Source of the DNA: an uncultured Bryobacteraceae bacterium
GTDB lineage: Bacteria > Acidobacteriota > Terriglobia > Bryobacterales > Bryobacteraceae
Reading direction: 5' to 3'
Assembly: GCA_937920635.1 (NCBI GenBank)
Contig: CAKZUE010000006.1
Location: 124,001-188,000 of the forward strand
DNA: 64,000 bases
How positions within the stretch are numbered: position 1 is the first letter of the stretch; each line of letters begins with the position of its first letter. The notes under the pieces were generated by a model, which was not told where the DNA came from, did not search any database, and saw only the letters and a program-made list of their open reading frames with translations. Below, in pieces: positions 6,183-14,060 of the stretch. The translations under genes were made by a program, and so were the position numbers.

Positions 6183-6196
6183 GCGCTCAGGAGCGC
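6183..6196. terminator. Short palindrome between convergent hemH and arsR-like genes
   Basis: GCGCTC-AG-GAGCGC spans the last bases of the arsR-like gene just after hemH. It could be a small bidirectional hairpin terminator, but it is short and has no T-run on either side. Confidence 0.3.
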
Positions 6197-6564
6197 GCCC
6201 GGCGCTGTCCCGCCTCGCGAACCTCTTCCTGCCGGATCTCCCGCAGCAGTTGCTGCGATTCGCCGAGAATGCCGGGGCATGCCTGCCGCAGCAGCACCAG
6301 CACTTCCGCGAAGGAAGGATGGCGCAGCGAATAGAAAACCTGATTGCCTTCCTTGCGGCTGACCACCACGCGGCGCGCGCGCAGCACGGCCAGATGCTGG
6401 CTGGCGTTGGCCTGCTCGATGCCCAGGCGCTCGATGATCTGTCCGGCGGAGAGCTCGCCATGCTGCAACTCTTCGACGATGGCGATGCGGGTCGGGTGGC
6501 CGAGCGCCTGGAGAATTTCAGCCTTGAATTTCCGCAGTGTGTCCGCCACTTCCGCTTTCCTCAC
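6187..6564 (-). CDS. ArsR-family winged-helix transcriptional regulator
   Basis: The 125-residue protein has an ArsR-type winged helix-turn-helix over residues 10-95: 'LQALGHPTRIAIVEEL', recognition helix 'GIEQANASQHLAVLRA' and wing 'VSRKEGNQVFYSL'. No CxC or other classical metal motif is present in the alpha-3 helix, so the inducer is not evident. The GTG start at 6564 overlaps the stop of the preceding hydrogenase-like subunit as GTGA, which places the regulator as the last gene of the Ehr-type membrane operon and suggests autoregulation of that operon. It is the only gene of the operon besides the small and antiporter-like subunits that appears undamaged. Confidence 0.85.
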   Translation of the reverse strand: MRKAEVADTLRKFKAEILQALGHPTRIAIVEELQHGELSAGQIIERLGIEQANASQHLAVLRARRVVVSRKEGNQVFYSLRHPSFAEVLVLLRQACPGILGESQQLLREIRQEEVREAGQRRARS

Positions 6565-7442
6565 TTCTCCCGCTCCCCGGCTGGCCGGAGCGCTTCCCGC
6601 CCGGGCGCCAGCCGTCCCACCGCCAGCGGGATTCCATAGAGCAGGCTTTCCGGGCGGGGCGGGCAGCCCGGCACGTACACATCCACCGGAACGACCTCGT
6701 CCACGGCGCCGCGCACCGCGTAGTTCCGGCCGAAGATGCCGCCGCTGATGCCGCAGGCGCCCACTGCCACCACGACCTTCGGATCAGGCGTCGCGCGCCA
6801 GGTCTTCAGCAGCGCCAGTTCCAGGTTGCGTGTCACCGGTCCGGTCACCAGCAGCATGTCGGCGTGCCGTGGCGAGGCGACGAAATGGATGCCGTACCGC
6901 TCCAGATCATAGAGCGGATTGTTGAGCGCATGAATCTCCACCTCGCAGCCGTTGCAGGAGCCGGCGTCGACTTCGCGGATGGCCAGGCTGCGGCCCAGAA
7001 TTTTGTGCACGGCATGACGGACAGCCGCTCCGGTGCGCTCGACGGAGCCGGGGGATGCGGCGCGCACGGGGCCTTCCGCCAGCCGCGTCTGCATGCCTTC
7101 GGAATCGATTTCGTATTTCGCGGAGAGGATCAGATCCTGCCTGCACAGCGCGGGCGGTTCGAGTTCGCGCTCCATGCGCACCGCCGGCTCGGGACACGCC
7201 TCCGCGCATTCTCCGCAGAAGATGCAGAGGCCGTAATCGACCTTCACCTGCCGGGACGCGCCCGAGTCGAGCACGGCGACGGCTCCGATAGGGCAGGCGG
7301 CAGCGGCCGGACAGGCGTCGCGCCAGGAGGCGAAATCGAAACGGGGCGTGCCGCGCCAGGCCGGCGGAGGATTGAACGAGCCGATCGGATCGCCGATGGT
7401 GACGAGCCCCGTGCCCAGAGACTTACAGAGTATGTTCAGCAT
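6561..7442 (-). CDS. Fused ferredoxin-like (HyfH) and NuoB-like small subunit (HyfI) of an Ehr/hydrogenase-4-type complex
   Basis: This 293-residue protein combines two usually separate subunits. Residues 1-100 are HyfH/NuoI-like. The second ferredoxin motif is intact (Cys73, 76, 79, 83), but in the first only Cys50 of the canonical four is in register, positions 40, 43 and 46 being Trp, Ala and Ala. Residues 150-280 are the NuoB/HyfI domain with all four N2-cluster ligands: Cys163 and Cys166 ('SCNGC'), Cys230 ('GACGISGG') and Cys260 ('PGCPPRPE'). It would form the cytoplasmic electron-transfer arm. The ATG lies 3 bases after the large-subunit stop, and its own stop overlaps the ArsR-like GTG. 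The fusion and loss of one cluster site are noted as findings. Confidence 0.85.
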   Translation of the reverse strand: MLNILCKSLGTGLVTIGDPIGSFNPPPAWRGTPRFDFASWRDACPAAAACPIGAVAVLDSGASRQVKVDYGLCIFCGECAEACPEPAVRMERELEPPALCRQDLILSAKYEIDSEGMQTRLAEGPVRAASPGSVERTGAAVRHAVHKILGRSLAIREVDAGSCNGCEVEIHALNNPLYDLERYGIHFVASPRHADMLLVTGPVTRNLELALLKTWRATPDPKVVVAVGACGISGGIFGRNYAVRGAVDEVVPVDVYVPGCPPRPESLLYGIPLAVGRLAPGREALRPAGEREK

Positions 7443-7445
7443 AAA

Positions 7446-9034
7446 TCACCGGTCCGTGCCCGAATATGAGAGGTTGAAACTCTTGTTGATGACCGGGAAA
7501 TCCGGGATGATATTTCCCTGAATTGCCTCCACCAGGGCAGGCCAATTATTGAGCGACGGATCCTTGATCCGGCAGCGGTCGAGGCGTCCGTTCTCGCCCA
7601 TCCGGATCCAGTGCAGAATCTCGCCGCGCCAGCCCTCGACGGCGGAAAGCGCAGTCGTGCCGGGAGCGATCTCCGGCAACGGCGACTCGGCCGGGCCTTC
7701 CGGCAGTTCCGCGGCCGCGGCCCGTATCAATGCCAGTGAATCCAGAACCTCCTCCGCGCGGACCCGCATCCGGTGCAGGACGTCGCCCTCGGAGAAGACG
7801 GGAACGCGCGGCTGGAACTGCCGGTACCCGTCGAACGGATGGTCCCTGCGCACATCCAGATGCTGGCCGGAAGCGCGCCCCGCCACGCCGGCGATGCCAA
7901 GGTCGCGCGCCTTGGCTGGCGGCAGCGTGCCCGTCGTTTCCAGCCTGTCCCTGGTGGAGTCCGAATTTTCGATCAGATCCAGAAGGCCGCGGAACTCGCG
8001 CCCGAAGGAATCCAGCTTTTCGAGGACCGGCGCCAGACGCTGCGCCTCGATCGGACGGCGCAGGCCGCCGGGCTGGAGGAGCCCCCGCAGCAGCCGGCTT
8101 CCGGTCAGTTCTTCGTTCAGGCGCAGCATCTGCTCCCGGAGCCGCGTGGCATGGGAGTTGGCGATGACGAAGCCTACGTCCGTGGCGATGGCGCCGATGT
8201 CGGCGGTGTGGTTGTAGATGCGTTCCAGTTCGAGCAGGATGACCCGCGCGAGGCGCGCATGCGCCGCAGCTTCCACGCCGGCCGCGCGCTCCAGAGCCAG
8301 GCAATACGCGAGACCGTGGCCGAAACTTGTGTCTCCGGAAACGCTCTCTGCAAGAAAAATGCCATGGTTCAAAGGCACGGTTTCAAAGCGTTTTTCGACG
8401 CCTTTATGTGTGTAAAACAGGCGTAGCTGGAGGTAAATGACGGGCTCGCCCGCCACGGCGAAATGGAAGTGGCCCGGTTCGATGATGCCGGCGTGCACGG
8501 GCTTCACCGGGACGTAAAGGACTCCTTCGCCGATCGTCTGGCGGAAGACGTGCGGGTCGCCTTCGAGCGGAGGCAACAACGTGTCGATGGGGAAGTCCTT
8601 GCGCAGCGGGTGTACATCGGGCCAGTGGTCGTGAAGCGCCACGCGGCGCGGGTTGGGGTGGCCTTCGGCCTCGATGCCAAACCAGTCCTGGACCTCGCGC
8701 TCCATCCAGTTGGCGGCCGGAGTCTGCACGGAGATGGAGGGGAACTGCGGCTGATCCGGCGCCACCCGGTAGCGGATGACGAGATATCGCTGGTCGTCCG
8801 GGTGTTCGACCACGTCGTAGAGATAGCAGGCGCCTTCGGCTGCGCGGCGGTCTTCGGCAAAGACGGAAGCGAAACGGCAGCCCCTCTCCAGCAGCGCCCC
8901 GGCAAGTTCCTGCCTGCCGGAGGCTTTTCCAGGAATACGCGGACTTCCGCAGGCGTCTTCTCGCAGGGGGCGGCAGCCAGCGCGCGCACCTCCGCCATCA
9001 ACCCATCGAATGCGGCGGATCCGGGCCGGCTCAT
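7446..9034 (-). pseudogene. Large subunit (HyfG/NuoC-NuoD-like) of an Ehr-type complex, single-base frameshift near codon 42
   Basis: A NuoC-like N-terminal part and a NuoD/[NiFe]-hydrogenase large-subunit part form one protein of about 529 residues if one base is restored. The start ATG (9034) and about 42 codons lie in one phase. The rest ('ELAGALLERGCRFASVFAEDRR' region onward to 'YSGTDR') lies in the -1 phase, and the shift point is at the CC run 8909-8910. The hydrogenase L1 motif RxCGxC is replaced by a segment with Ser and Thr at the cysteine places (about 233 and 236). The C-terminal DPCxxC is replaced by 'NLSYSG' (Ser and Gly). No Ni-Fe site can form, which is the mark of Ehr complexes. 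A shorter product from an in-frame GTG at 8813 (455 aa) is possible. The shift may be a homopolymer sequencing error. Confidence 0.75.
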
Positions 9035-10513
9035 GATCTCACCTCCAGCAGGCTGGGCGGCCTGCGTCAGCAGAGATGAAAGCGCGGAGGGCATCCAGAA
9101 CGCCAGCGCCAGCAGCAGCACGGCCAGCACGCCAAGCGGATACACGGTCCAACGGTTGCGGTCCCCTGGGGGAAGATCGGGCGCCGGACCCAGCAGCAGC
9201 CGGGCCGCGTGCGCGAACATGCCCGAGAAAATGAGCACCAGCAGGATCACGGCGAGGATCGACGCCCAACTGTGCCCCTGGGCGAAACCGGCCCGCAGCA
9301 CCGTGAACTCGCTCAGGAACAGCGGAAACGGCGGCGTGCCCGTGACGGCGAGCACGACGGCGAACAGAGCCGCGCCGCTGACCGGGAGAACATGAATCAG
9401 TCCGCCGGCCGTGTTTCTGAGCGAATCGCCGCCCGTGTGCTGCTGCGCGTTGCCGGCGGAAAAGAACAGCAGCGGCTTGGCCAGCGTGTGAAAGGCCATG
9501 TGCAGGACCGCGCCGAGCGAGCCCAGCGGGCCGCCGAAGCCGAGGCTGAGCGTGATGATGCCGCAGTGGTCAATGGAGGAATAGGCGAGCAGTCTCCGGT
9601 AGGACTTCTGCACAAGAATGAACTGCGTGGCGACGGCGATCGAGAGGAGGCCGAACAGCACCAGCAGCTTCGACGGCATGGCCGGTCCTGTGGCGCGCGC
9701 CGACAGCAGGAAGAGGCGGCCCAGGCCGTACAGCGCGCAGTTCAGCATCGCCGTCGCCATCAGCGCCGCCGCGGGCTCAGGCGCTTCGCTGTAAGCGTCG
9801 GGCTTCCAGGTGTGCATCGGGGCCAGCCCCGCCTTGGTGCCATAGCCGAGCAGGATCAGGATGAAAGCCAGCCGCATCACCAGCGGGTTGAAGCTGGGCG
9901 CGGCGGCGAACAGGAACGGCCAGTTCAGCGCCTCCCAAGTCTCCATCCCTGTGCCTTCAAAAGCCGCATAGTGAGTCAGAACCGTCCCGAACAGCGCCAT
10001 CGACAGGCCGACGCCGCCCAGGATGGCGTACTTCCAGGCGGCCTCCAGCGAGGTGGGCTTTCCGCCAAACGCCACCAGAAACACGGACGCCAGCGTCGCG
10101 CCTTCCAGCGCCACCCACATGATTCCGAGATTGCCGGTGAGCGAAACGGCCAGCAGCGTGAACGCGAATAGATGCGAGAGCGTGAAATAGAGCCGGAGAT
10201 CCCGCAGGCTGAGATGGGCGGGCGAAGCAGCCGGCTGCGGTCCGCGCAGGTAGCCCACGGTGTAAGGAGCCGAGACAGCCCACACCACCGCTGTCAGCAG
10301 CGTTACCAGCGCCGAGAGGGCGTCCGCGTACAGGAATCCGTTCAGGAAACTCACCGGGCCGCCGGTGATCACCGCCGCCGCCAGAAATACGGACGCAACC
10401 AGCACGGCGCCTGCGCCGCCGCAGTAGATCAGCTCAATCCAGGCGCGCCGCCGCCCGGCGAACGTCGCAGCCGCGCCGGCCAGTGGAACCGCGAGAATCC
10501 AGGCGAGAGCCAT
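9031..10513 (-). CDS. HyfF-like (NuoL/M/N-type) antiporter-like membrane subunit, C-terminal phase shift
   Basis: About 493 residues with around 14 hydrophobic segments and the conserved pattern of complex I antiporter subunits: 'GNLGIMWVALEGATLASVFLV', 'YGTKAGLAPMHTWKPDAYSEAP', 'LLAYSSIDHCGIITL' and 'HTLAKPLLFFSAG'. These match hydrogenase-4 HyfF/HycC-type proteins with lysines for proton translocation. It lies 10 bases after hyfE. In the given sequence the phase has no stop before the next gene and would run on to 8504. Removing one base in the GGG run at 9055-9057 gives a tail ending in LLEVRS and a TGA overlapping the next ATG (ATGA), exactly like the hyfB/hyfC junction. I therefore place the end at 9031 and regard the extra base as an indel. 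Confidence 0.78.
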
Positions 10514-10523
10514 CGGTTCCCTT

Positions 10524-11210
10524 TCAACCCCGCAGCCGGCTCAGCCGGGTCACATCCATCGAATCGAACGCCTCGCGAATCCGGCCCGCCAGGATGGTCA
10601 GCACGAGAACCGCTACCAGCACGTCGAAGAACACGCCGAGCTCCACAATCAGGGGCATGCCATAAGTGAGCGAGATCGCGGCCAGAAAGAGCCCGTTCTC
10701 CAGCGACAGCAGCGCCAGCACCTGCGACAGCGCCTTCCGGCGGTTCGCCATCAGGAAGAATCCGATCAGGAACAGCGCCACCGCCACGGGCAGCGTATTG
10801 TGGCCCAGCGACGAAGGGCTGCCGTAGCTCATCCCGTGCTGGAGCGGCTCGGCCACCACATAGGCCAGCAGCGTGAGCATGCCGGAGATCACCACGGAGA
10901 CGGGCACGTTCAGCAGCGGTTTCATCTCGTGCTCGATCCGGATCTGCTCCACCAGCCGCAGCAGAATGGCCGGCAGCAACAGGGACTTCAGCAGGAATGT
11001 GAGCGCGGCCGCCAGATAGATGTGGCCGGCGCCGGTGAACCAGGCGATCGTGCCCGCGATGGCGGCCAGCAAAAACGATTGCAGGGCGAAGACGTAGATG
11101 CTCGAAACCAGCGATTTCTGGGCGACCAGCGTGATCTGAAGCACGAGCACGATGGCCGTCATCAGGGTGATCATGGTCTGTCCGAACATCGGATCGGATA
11201 GCAGTGGCAT
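10524..11210 (-). CDS. HyfE-like (NuoK-type) membrane subunit
   Basis: The 228-residue protein has about seven membrane segments, several acidic residues within them and a conserved 'LLSLENGLFLAAISLTYGMPLIVELGVFFDVLVA' region (residues roughly 155-205), typical of the HyfE/NuoK-like subunit of group 4 hydrogenases and Ehr complexes. It would sit in the membrane arm next to the antiporter-like subunits. The start at 11210 is chosen because AGGA lies upstream at normal spacing. A Met at 11234 would extend it into the hyfC coding end. The hyfF gene begins 10 bases after its stop. No disruption is visible. Confidence 0.85.
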   Translation of the reverse strand: MPLLSDPMFGQTMITLMTAIVLVLQITLVAQKSLVSSIYVFALQSFLLAAIAGTIAWFTGAGHIYLAAALTFLLKSLLLPAILLRLVEQIRIEHEMKPLLNVPVSVVISGMLTLLAYVVAEPLQHGMSYGSPSSLGHNTLPVAVALFLIGFFLMANRRKALSQVLALLSLENGLFLAAISLTYGMPLIVELGVFFDVLVAVLVLTILAGRIREAFDSMDVTRLSRLRG

Positions 11211-11220
11211 GGGGGTCTTC

Positions 11221-12170
11221 CTAGCGGCCTCCAAACAGAAACGTGGAAATCAGCGCCAGCGCGCCCAGCACGAACGCCACCGACAGCAGCTCCGGCACGC
11301 GGAACAGGCGCATCTTGGCATTGGTCGTCTCGACCAGCACCACGGCGGCAGCCAGCAGAAGCACTTTCAAGAGATAGAGAGCGGCGGCGGAAAGAACCGC
11401 CGGCGCGCCGGGCGCCGAAGCCAGCGTGAAGGGAAAGAAGAGTTTGGCAAGCAGCGTCAGCAGCACCAGTTGCTTCATCGACGCGCTCCATTCGATGAGA
11501 GCCAGCCACGGGCCGGAGTATTCCAGGATCATCGCCTCGTGGATCATGGTGAGCTCGAGGTGTGTGGCGGGATTGTCCACCGGGATGCGGCCGGTCTCGG
11601 CCAGCAGCACGATGAACAGGGCCGCGAACGCGAGCATCTGCGAGGGCGCCAGAAAACGCCAGCTCTGTCCGATGGCCGCCTGCGCCATCCTGGAAGGGCA
11701 GTCGAGCCGGCCGTCAGCGCGACTGTGAAGAGAGCCAGCATCAGCGCGGGCTCGGCCAGCGCCGCGATCGTCATCTCGCGGCTCGAACCCATGCCGCCGA
11801 AAGAAGTGCCCGTGTCCAGCGCAGCCAGCGCCAGAAAGAAGCGGCCCAGTCCGAGCAGGTACACGAGCGAGAGCACGCCCCCGAACTGGCTCAGCGGCGC
11901 GGCGGCGAACACCGTGGGCGCCAGCAGCCCCGCCAGCAGCGTCGTCGAAAACAGAACGAATGGCGCGGCGGCAAACACCGGTGATGCGGTTTCCGGGGTC
12001 ACCATGCCTTTGCGCAGCAGCCTGGCCAGATCGCGGTACGGTTGCAGGGGCGAGGGGCCGCGGCGGGTTTGCAGCCGCGCCTTGGCGGTCCGGATCAGCC
12101 CCGACACCAGCGGGCTCAGCAGCAGAAGCAGCAGCGCCTGGAGCGCGGCGTTGAGCGCGGAACTGGTCAT
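11221..12170 (-). pseudogene. HyfC-like (NuoH-type) membrane subunit, frameshifted
   Basis: Two abutting frames encode one NuoH/HyfC-like protein of about 316 residues. The first part (12170 to about 11690) has 'RRGPSPLQPYRDLARLLRKG' and ends in '..TAGSTALPG'. The second (from about 11688) begins 'MAQAAIGQSWRFLAP' and contains the conserved 'LLAETGRIPVDNPATHLELTMIHEAM', the family signature for the quinone-side/HyfC subunit. One base is missing at the CC run 11689-11690. Restoring it joins the halves perfectly. The start overlaps the hyfB stop as ATGA. Either the gene is inactivated, the second half is made separately from the ATG at 11688, or the base loss is a sequencing error. Confidence 0.8.
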
Positions 12171-13475
12171 GATCTCACCCCGAACAGCAGCAGCAGCATG
12201 AGCGTCACGAAGATGTATGCCAGATAGGCGTGGATGCTGCCCGCCTGGATCTGCCGGGTCCGGAGCGCCAGGCGCAACAGAAACTCCTGCGCCGCCGTGT
12301 GGAGCGAGGCGCCGGGCGCGGGGCGGATCTCCGACTCAAACCGGATCTCGCTGGGGAAGTACGGAGAAGCCTCGAACTTCGGCTGAATCTCCCGCCTGGG
12401 GCGGAAGACCACGCTGAAGATCATGCGGATCGACTTGGAGAAGGCCATGGCCGTGTATTCGTTGGACGCGCTCACCGCGGGGAGTCCGCAGTCCCACACG
12501 GGTCCCACAACCGTGTTGACGCGCCGGCGGCGCAGCATCCAGAGCACCCACGGCGTCAGCCCAAACGCTGCCAGCAACAGGCCCAGCGCCAGCGGCGATG
12601 CCGCTCCCGTGCGCGGCGGCGGCGCCTGAATGGCCGCTGTGGGGAGCGAAACCGCGGCCAGCGAAACCCGCGTCTTCAGGAACTGCATCGTGACGCCGTC
12701 GAAACCTTGCAGGAACCACGGGGCGCCCAGCCCCAGCAGGATGCAGGCCAGCGCCAGCCAGGCCATGCCCGTGCGCATCGAGGGCGCGCACTCGGCCGCC
12801 TTCCGGGCGTGCTCGGAGCGCGGCAGCGCCAGGAAGGTGATGCCGTAGGCTTTGACGAAGCACGCCGCCGCCAGCGCCGCTGTCAGCGCCAGCATGGCGC
12901 CCGCGGCGGGAAAAGCCACCCGCGTCACCTCGGCCGTAGTTCCAAAGCCGGCCAGCAGAGCCTGGTAGGTCAGCCACTCGCTGACGAACCCGTTCAGAGG
13001 CGGCAGCCCCGAGATGGCGACAGCACCGATGAGGAAGTAGAGCGCAGTGCGTGGCATCCGGCGGATCAGGCCGCCCATCTCTTCCATGTTCCGCGTGCCC
13101 GTCTCATGCACCACCGCGCCCGCGCCCAGGAAAAGCAGCCCTTTGAACAGCGCGTGGTTCAGCGTATGGAAGAGTCCGGCGGTCAGGGCCAGTGCGGCCA
13201 GCTTCGGATGGCCATAGGAGCGCAGCAGCAGGCCGCCGCCGAAACCCATCAGGATGATGCCGATGTTTTCAATGCTGTGGAAGGCGAGCAGCCGCTTCAG
13301 GTCGTGTTCCATCAGAGCGTAAAGCACGCCGAGCAGGCATGAGATGACCCCGGCGGCGAGCACCACCATGCCAGCCCATGGAGGCAGGGCGCCGTAAAAG
13401 TCGAAGCAGACGCGCGCGATGCCGTAGATGCCGGTCTTGATCACGATGCCCGAAAGCAGCGAGGAGACATTGCGC
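12167..13475 (-). pseudogene. HyfB-like (NuoL-type) antiporter subunit, 5'-truncated
   Basis: From about 13475 to the stop at 12167 the translation (about 435 residues) matches the C-terminal two thirds of HyfB/NuoL-type proteins: 'SSLLSGIVIKTGIYGIARV', 'LLAFHSIENIGIILMGFGG', 'FHTLNHALFKGLLFLGAGAV' and 'GLPPLNGFVSEWL'. The usual N-terminal region of roughly 230-250 residues is missing. Upstream of 13475 the frame stays open to 13582 but encodes non-homologous Arg-rich sequence made of the leader of the divergent cyclophilin gene. So the 5' part and the operon's promoter have been lost by a rearrangement, or by a mis-joined assembly. Its stop overlaps the hyfC ATG. Confidence 0.8.
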
Positions 13476-13544
13476 GGGCGCCGCCCGCGGCTCCTTATCC
13501 GTTCCTCGCGCGGCCGGCGGGAACCTGCGACAATGGAGTCACCC

Positions 13545-14060
13545 ATGTCACAAGCCTTCCGCGTCAAGTTTGAAACAAGCAAGGGCGATTTTGTCGCCCA
13601 GGTGAATCCCGAGTGGGCGCCTCTGGGCGCCGCGCAGTTCCGATCGCTCGTGGAGGCGGGCTTCTACGATGGAGCCAGGTTTTTCCGCGTGGTTCCCAAC
13701 TTTGTCGTGCAGTTCGGACTGGCGGCGGATCCGGCGGTGACGGCGAAGCTCGGGTCGAGCCCGATCCCGGATGACCCGGTGAAGGAATCGAACCGCCGCG
13801 GTCGGCTCACCTTCGCCACCGCCGGGCCCAACACGCGCACCACGCAGCTCTTTATCAACCTCGGCGACAACACCTTCCTCGACCGGCAGGGGTTTGCGCC
13901 GTTCGCCGAAGTGGTGGAAGGCATGGACGTGGTGGACTCCATTTATGCCGGCTACGGAGAGCAGCCGCACCAGGGGCAGATCCGCGCGCAGGGCAACCGG
14001 TACCTGGAGGCGAATTTCCCTTTGCTCGACGGCATCGTCAAAGCCTCCGTCGCCGAGTGA
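13545..14060 (+). CDS. Peptidyl-prolyl cis-trans isomerase, cyclophilin type
   Basis: A 171-residue single-domain cyclophilin that catalyses cis-trans isomerisation of Xaa-Pro bonds. The expected core is present: 'FFRVVPNFVVQFG' (catalytic Arg), 'FATAGPNTRTTQLFINLGDN' and 'FAPFAEVVEGMDVVDSI'. No signal peptide is seen, so it is probably cytoplasmic. The start at 13545 is preceded by GGAG at 6 bases. A Met at 13533 would add four residues. It is head-to-head with the truncated hyfB-like gene, whose missing 5' part would have lain where this gene's leader now is. It is convergent with the M1-like peptidase gene, with a hairpin between them. Confidence 0.9.
   Translation: MSQAFRVKFETSKGDFVAQVNPEWAPLGAAQFRSLVEAGFYDGARFFRVVPNFVVQFGLAADPAVTAKLGSSPIPDDPVKESNRRGRLTFATAGPNTRTTQLFINLGDNTFLDRQGFAPFAEVVEGMDVVDSIYAGYGEQPHQGQIRAQGNRYLEANFPLLDGIVKASVAE

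Follow-up and report, generated by a model that had tools for sequence, protein, structure and literature searches.

The 64,000-nucleotide stretch of DNA analysed here (the window), which belongs to contig C6 of a 4.15-Mb, 91-contig draft genome of an uncultured Bryobacteraceae bacterium, carries on its minus strand a Hyf-type operon composed of hyfB, hyfC, hyfE, hyfF, hyfG, hyfHI and a gene for an ArsR-type regulator (~13,478 down to 6,187; Table 1). Our sequence comparisons support the view that this is an Ehr operon, thus of a known kind, and they show the replacement of the Ni-Fe cysteines in its large subunit to be a conserved character of the family, present where the genes are intact and not a product of decay. 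The copy in the window is itself damaged: on the assembly, hyfB, hyfC, the end of hyfF and the start of hyfG are affected. We give a little better than an even chance to the reading that the Ehr operon of the window was inactivated recently and that its intact relatives encode a redox-driven ion pump without H2 chemistry. A preliminary description of this DNA had pointed to the gene order hyfB-C-E-F-G-HI of hydrogenase-4, which is indeed present on the minus strand between ~13,478 and 6,561.

Table 1. Features of the operon and of its border with ppiB (positions in the window)
Feature	Position	Strand	Basis or remark
hyfB remnant (antiporter-like subunit)	12167..13478	-	NCBIfam hydrogenase 4 subunit B, matched solely over profile positions 241-666 (of 669); start codon and ~256 codons of the 5' part missing; gene of congener L036, 692 aa
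Deletion junction, hyfB remnant / start of divergent ppiB	13478..13545	.	~827 bases of congener L036 unmatched
hyfC (NuoH-like), frameshift near 11,699	11221..12170	-	Two overlapping Pfam NADHdh frames; length differs from intact L036
hyfE, frame intact	10524..11234	-	NCBIfam hydrogenase 4 membrane subunit, E 4.9e-33, under model cut-off
hyfF (antiporter-like)	9034..10513	-	Stop lost, frameshift near 9,057; frame continues to 8,504
hyfG/EhrL, fused 30-kDa + 49-kDa-like (large) subunit	7446..9034	-	Pfam Complex1_30kDa 1.1e-22, Complex1_49kDa 2.8e-42
Frameshift in N-terminal domain of hyfG	near 8,936	-	Comparison with congener
Former L1 Ni-Fe ligand motif, S-V-S-G-D-T-S-F-G-H	8316..8345	-	Frame reading and alignments
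Former L2 Ni-Fe ligand motif, N-L-S-Y-S-G-T-D-R, last residues of protein	7449..7475	-	Frame reading and alignments
hyfHI fusion	6561..7442	-	NuoB-type domain 1.8e-33; HyfI with N2 cysteines
HyfH part of hyfHI (coordinates of the whole fusion)	6561..7442	-	3 of 4 motif I cysteines missing
ArsR-type regulator	6187..6564	-	Pfam HTH_5 / HTH_20

The large-subunit frame is open from 9038 to 7446 on the minus strand. A profile of 17 relatives aligns with HycE in 7z0s at E 8.7e-116 and without gaps at the ligand motifs, so that RVCGICG of HycE faces SISGDSS and DPCYSCTDR faces NLSYSGTDR. In alignments of the window protein with HycE and HyfG of E. coli and with NuoD, Cys1 corresponds to Ser, Cys2 to Thr, Cys3 to Ser and Cys4 to Gly; the alignments with HycE and HyfG thereby bear out what the preliminary description had read for L1 (Ser, Thr) and L2 (Ser, Gly). 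The L1 Arg is also replaced by Ser, and an Asp lies between the two former L1 cysteines. No displaced cysteines were found at L1 or L2 in any of these alignments, that with HycE in 7z0s included, and the large subunit therefore lacks the four cysteines (RxCGxC and DPCxxC) of group 4 [NiFe] hydrogenases. An AlphaFold2 model of the large subunit at locus L062 (mean pLDDT 83.9, below 50 at residues 110-160) has HycE as its best structural match (Z 42.5, 428 residues, 1.8 A), followed by complex I (Z 40.7, 322 residues).

The same site recurs far beyond the window. We compared 84 large subunits at 80 named loci, the nearest 80 of at least 549 relatives found, a sample that leans towards the window's own branch and takes in Acidobacteriota, Verrucomicrobiota, Nitrospirota, Methanoperedens and other archaea, one member of the Bacteroidota and one cyanobacterium. 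Ligand cysteines are absent from 81 of these subunits, all four are present in 3, and none is intermediate. In every one of the 81 cysteine-less subunits an Asp separates the two former L1 positions, Cys3 is Ser and Cys4 is Gly, within a conserved replacement site S-G-D-[STN] / S-Y-x-G; the three four-cysteine subunits have Ala or Ile where the others have Asp. Nine more large subunits likewise have the Asp and lack the ligand cysteines; they are encoded on plasmids of Proteobacteria and Rhodococcus, at 8 loci drawn from 94 plasmid records with a match. Since the same or similar states recur in relatives of several phyla, the loss of the cysteines is not a matter of chance. Among the matches listed, the closest named relatives of the large subunit belong to the Bryobacterales and other Acidobacteriota. 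Within the GTDB family, relatives with an identity of 60% or higher occur in at least 32 of 150 genomes (30 of them long, 2 partial); within the order, 38 of 257 genomes gave matches with E values of 1e-90 or lower. An ArsR-type relative adjoins the operon at 12 of the 15 orthologous loci of related genomes.

Some loci hold other variants. Three from the window's bacterial family (L049, L050, L051) have a different cysteine-less Hyf-like site (L1 FSAKS or FSATS, L2 GLSATE) that lacks the Asp. Some genomes that carry Ehr have a second copy, 44-45% identical (L052 at G092:C195; G207:C90; G234:C886), and that of L052 has all four cysteines, with ELCYSC in place of the DPCxxC motif. At three verrucomicrobial loci (L083, L089, L095) there is a second cysteine-less large subunit, ~39% identical and with its own HyfHI, whose HyfH retains cysteines of both ferredoxin motifs. 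On a Variovorax plasmid (L143:1-3389), two Ehr-like operons lie next to each other, and one of them includes a 4Fe-4S protein.

The tree comprised 52 proteins with the L1 and L2 columns removed; its NuoD rows were two, both from the window's genome, and it took in no Geobacter Ehr, MBS or MBX sequence. The window protein pairs with that of its congener (100/100), within an acidobacterial clade (100/100) that stands beside Verrucomicrobiota (100/99). The four-cysteine proteins of Thermincola, Desulfosporosinus and L052 cluster together (97/94) close to the base of the Ehr group, outside of which lie HycE/HyfG and NuoD. In places the order of the deepest Ehr branches has support below 80, and long branches are present; the tree is compatible with a single exchange of the site, which may thus have occurred once. 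The cysteine-less loci of N. moscoviensis and N. defluvii, presumably the published Ehr to judge from organism and description, also fall in a group with the window. Its large subunit is homologous to group 4 [NiFe] hydrogenases and to complex I (profiles, tree and structure match) and lacks the Ni- and Fe-binding residues, the feature by which Ehr is recognised in PMC6349859 (excerpts). The suggestion of an Ehr-type complex is thus upheld by the grouping with cysteine-less subunits, Nitrospira included, by HycE as nearest solved relative and by the separation from NuoD.

In most Acidobacteriota and Verrucomicrobiota read, HyfH lacks cysteines 1-3 of motif I together with the final cysteine of motif II and keeps the other four; the window and its congener have kept that last cysteine of motif II. 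According to the NuoI ligand scheme, as we take it to apply here, the four missing cysteines bind N6a and the four kept bind N6b, and the single retained HyfH cluster would therefore be the one next to N2. A pattern-based census of 109 cysteine-less rows, in which some genomes are counted twice (e.g. L042/L074, L040/L066), gave an N6b-type cluster only in 51, no ferredoxin motif in 33 (26 from Nitrospirota and 7 plasmid-borne proteobacterial), two clusters in 12 (11 archaeal, one from Bacteroidota) and one full motif in 7 (the window, its congener, L049, the second Variovorax copy and the three second copies of Verrucomicrobia, in which the first motif is there but spaced differently); of the remainder, 5 had no HyfI in reach and 1 was of another type. 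The electron-entry path thus shrinks by lineage, from two HyfH clusters in archaea to mostly one in Acidobacteriota and Verrucomicrobiota and none in Nitrospirota and Proteobacteria. The N2 cysteines are present in the sequences read, the third of them in Nitrospira too. The positions of the complex-I quinone ligands, which we take to be a His and a Tyr of Nqo4, align with Ile and Gly in the window, and for this reason a quinone is without support from its known ligands. The antiporter-like membrane subunits are recognised by profile as hyfB and hyfF, of which hyfB is truncated in the window and full in L036; ten HyfF proteins, those of E. coli and the window among them, are identical at all the Glu, Lys and His columns compared, which presumably have a role in the proton path.

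No HypD match was found in 7 of the 32 carriers listed, three of these genomes being 94-99% complete, and Ni-Fe maturation is therefore dispensable. HypD is nevertheless commoner in the carriers listed, with 25 of 32 (a fragment included), than among the remaining genomes, with 63 of 118; this excess fits poorly with full independence from hydrogenases, without necessarily pointing to a connection. An eighth carrier, the congener with the intact Ehr operon, has no more of HypD than a fragment of 39 residues (G044:C55:33962-34078).

The search for a soluble dehydrogenase partner, which the preliminary description had proposed, was confined to the locus surroundings and yielded none common to the neighbours examined. 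A shared soluble oxidoreductase or donor gene emerged neither from the conservation comparison of 20 loci, nor from Pfam searches of 20 proteins (19 chosen neighbours, including the SulP protein of L129 and two proteins beside four-cysteine sister operons, plus the ArsR of the window), nor from the annotation of 7 of the 8 plasmid loci. Formate dehydrogenase, proposed as the partner of other Ehr (PMC6349859, excerpts), is not among the neighbours identified at the loci. Isolated neighbours occur at single loci: in L046 a DUF362 protein is encoded immediately next to hyfHI, in L039 a flavin amine-oxidase-like gene stands on the opposite strand, and an aldehyde ferredoxin oxidoreductase lies ~2.4 kb from the Desulfosporosinus sister operon (L135). 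A second hyfB-like gene is found in L043 and L109.

Our best guess is that the intact Ehr works like complex I and the energy-converting hydrogenases, as a redox-driven ion pump, and we infer that it can neither produce nor consume H2. Electrons would come from a soluble carrier of low potential, possibly ferredoxin, and enter at the remaining N6b-type cluster of HyfH or, where HyfH is gone, directly at N2; from N2 they would go on to a small acceptor, a quinone or some other, bound in the rebuilt cavity above HyfC, and H+ or Na+ would be driven through HyfC, HyfF and HyfB by the energy released. Odd for an electron-driven machine is the loss of HyfH clusters in most of the Ehr loci examined, and the lack of a donor gene common to the operons counts against a redox pump.

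An anion transporter of the SulP type offers a different lead. It lies beside or inside the operon, on the same strand, at 11 of the 80 named loci (the nearest 80 of at least 549) and in four phyla; in L131 it is ~1 kb away, and a weaker match in L113 was left out of the count. All six SulP proteins scanned have SulP transporter and STAS domains, and for two of them the nearest solved chain is 6ki1, which we take to be BicA. In a locus of the Bacteroidota (L129:6939-9137), a SulP gene whose product has STAS and PTS_EIIA_2 domains is situated between hyfG and hyfHI. Such a neighbour may be a lead to bicarbonate, and the complex might then no longer be redox-driven: its rebuilt site would couple CO2/HCO3- or another anion to proton flow with SulP as partner, in a DAB-like manner. 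This alternative, which we hold to be unlikely, draws on the recurrence of SulP in four phyla against a background of ~1.4 matches per genome, on the loss of HyfH clusters in many lineages, and on published cases: some SulP proteins carry bicarbonate (PMC6458275, excerpts), DAB2 functions without electron transfer (PMC13144422, excerpts), and in Acidithiobacillus caldus a hyfBCEFG cluster is reported to stand beside a beta-carbonic anhydrase (PMC3826726, excerpts). However, N2 is kept, and SulP may also carry sulfate (PMC6458275, excerpts). No SulP gene lies beside the operon at the 20 loci of related genomes (15 of them Ehr orthologues) or at the 8 plasmid loci, and a single query with E. coli Can found no beta-carbonic anhydrase at the loci examined. 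Moreover, similar SulP genes are common in family genomes without Ehr, and the background rate (83 matches, fragments counted, in 61 genomes, 39 of which have any) comes from the acidobacterial family alone.

A related view, which we likewise consider doubtful, is that Ehr is a complex-I relative losing its electron input stepwise. The Ni-Fe ligands and the known quinone ligands would have gone first, followed by the N6a cluster and later by all of HyfH; selection would continue to act on the subunits that move ions and on the new invariant Asp of the old active site. Some lineages may thereby have come to an ion-coupled machine that is non-redox or uses N2 only, possibly linked to bicarbonate/CO2 through SulP.

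The inactivation that forms part of our preferred reading rests on the comparison with the congener G044 (locus L036), where the operon is complete and flanked by relatives of the same neighbours. Relative to it, the window has lost ~827 bases covering the start and approximately the first 256 codons of hyfB, and single-base frameshifts affect hyfC (near 11,699), the end of hyfF (near 9,057, with loss of the stop) and the part of hyfG that encodes its N-terminal domain (near 8,936). The interval 7446-9034 is thus not one intact frame: the hyfG start at 9034 sits in the hyfF frame, and the frame that it opens departs from the large-subunit frame near 8936. Nor does the working complex implied by the preliminary description hold for the window, since hyfB is without its first ~256 codons and three more genes are frameshifted with respect to the intact congener. 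The missing part of hyfB was not found elsewhere in the window's genome (best matches only 26-32% identical), and the operon is absent from three other congeners, in which searches with hyfG and hyfB returned nothing above ~28-34% identity. At orthologous loci not ended by a contig edge, the open frames comprise at least 674 codons for hyfB and at least 313 for hyfC; the intactness of hyfG in relatives is taken from the open frames listed. The dN/dS values against the congener are 0.07-0.19 for the operon and 0.09-0.16 for four neighbouring genes, and from this likeness the loss looks recent, the genes having been under selection until recently.

The purifying selection visible throughout the operon, together with the draft state of the 91-contig assembly, could also mean that the operon is intact in the cell and that the lesions are assembly errors. 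This is distinctly unlikely: four separate departures, the ~827 missing bases among them, would have to be explained, the hyfB remnant abuts ppiB and its missing part is on no other contig, the orthologous hyfB and hyfC frames away from contig edges are open over the lengths given above, and three congeners lack the operon.

MBS and MBX are modified group 4 hydrogenases of the same overall design. This shared design would allow a sulfur compound to be reduced in the former active site of Ehr, as in the archaeal MBS/MBX; no sulfur gene is common to the neighbours examined, however, and we find the idea quite improbable. MBX itself is mentioned as a ferredoxin:NADP oxidoreductase (PMC6349859, excerpts). 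Very improbable is a large subunit that is NuoD proper, part of respiratory complex I. Pfam Complex1_49kDa does score above its cut-off, and the NCBIfam NuoD models match, but all of these remain under their cut-offs; the tree places the window with the Hyf-type proteins and not inside NuoD proper, which stands apart at 100/100. The quinone-site His and Tyr of NuoD and its D-R-M-D-Y motif are absent as well, the best solved relative is HycE, and two other NuoD-type genes lie elsewhere in the window's genome. A true [NiFe] hydrogenase whose cysteines were lost as the window operon decayed has practically no chance, for although that operon is decaying, the idea is refuted by orthologues with the same cysteine-less site, intact relatives from several phyla share this site and its replacement residues, and 0 of 84 subunits (nearest 80 loci of at least 549) have one to three ligand cysteines.

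These observations can be set against earlier accounts of Ehr. HydDB leaves Ehr out on the ground that it is a homologue without H2 metabolism (PMC5037454, excerpts), and Ehr without Ni-Fe ligands has been described in Margulisbacteria and relatives (PMC6349859), in the CPR (PMC7304191) and in Nitrospira (PMC10284858, PMC12342949), with the function given as unknown in the excerpts of these papers. Such complexes are common, and Ehr is reported from about half of the Nitrospirales genomes studied (PMC12342949, excerpts). The Geobacter complex has been called nonfunctional for want of a Ni-Fe site (PMC13194489, excerpts); for the present Ehr branch, the invariant replacement residues and the purifying selection argue against such a label. 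The available excerpts of the Ehr literature make no mention of the loss of HyfH clusters or of a SulP neighbour, either of which may be published; nothing on the Ehr complex was found in those of PMC6606698, PMC8115632, PMC12361115 and PMC3578206, and we found no papers on such operons in Rhizobium or Burkholderia. Our data also narrow the range of possible roles for Ehr, since the complex lacks both a Ni-Fe site and the canonical quinone ligands and many lineages have lost the HyfH clusters as well; the four-cysteine sisters, together with the all-or-none exchange and its new Asp, provide concrete residues for testing.

Among known systems, the Ehr of Nitrospira (PMC12342949, PMC10284858, excerpts) is like that of the window in its gene order, in its cysteine-less large subunit (44-50% identical) and in its SGD and LSYxG sites. 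The Nitrospirota loci examined have no HyfH ferredoxin motif. In the acidobacterial form, HyfH and HyfI are fused, a single N6b-type cluster is kept, and Ser replaces the L1 Arg; the copy in the window is, in addition, damaged. With the formate hydrogenlyase and hydrogenase-4 of E. coli, the operon has subunits B, C, E, F, G, H and I of Hyf in common, and HycE is the best solved match; however, E. coli HycE and HyfG retain all four Ni-Fe cysteines, and the E. coli operons also hold hyfA, hyfD, hycH/hycI/hyfJ and, beside hyc, the hyp genes, none of which was seen in the window operon. The four-cysteine sisters of Thermincola, Desulfosporosinus and L052 are the closest cysteine-bearing relatives in the tree and share the operon type; with their complete Ni-Fe ligand set, they are probably hydrogenases, and they read NKSFELCYSC where Ehr reads NKSFNLSYSG. 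Respiratory complex I (NuoCD, NuoB, NuoI, NuoH, NuoL/M) has the core fold and the N2 cysteines in common with Ehr, and the window operon differs from it in having no NADH module, in the replacement of the quinone-site His and Tyr and in its L1 motif.
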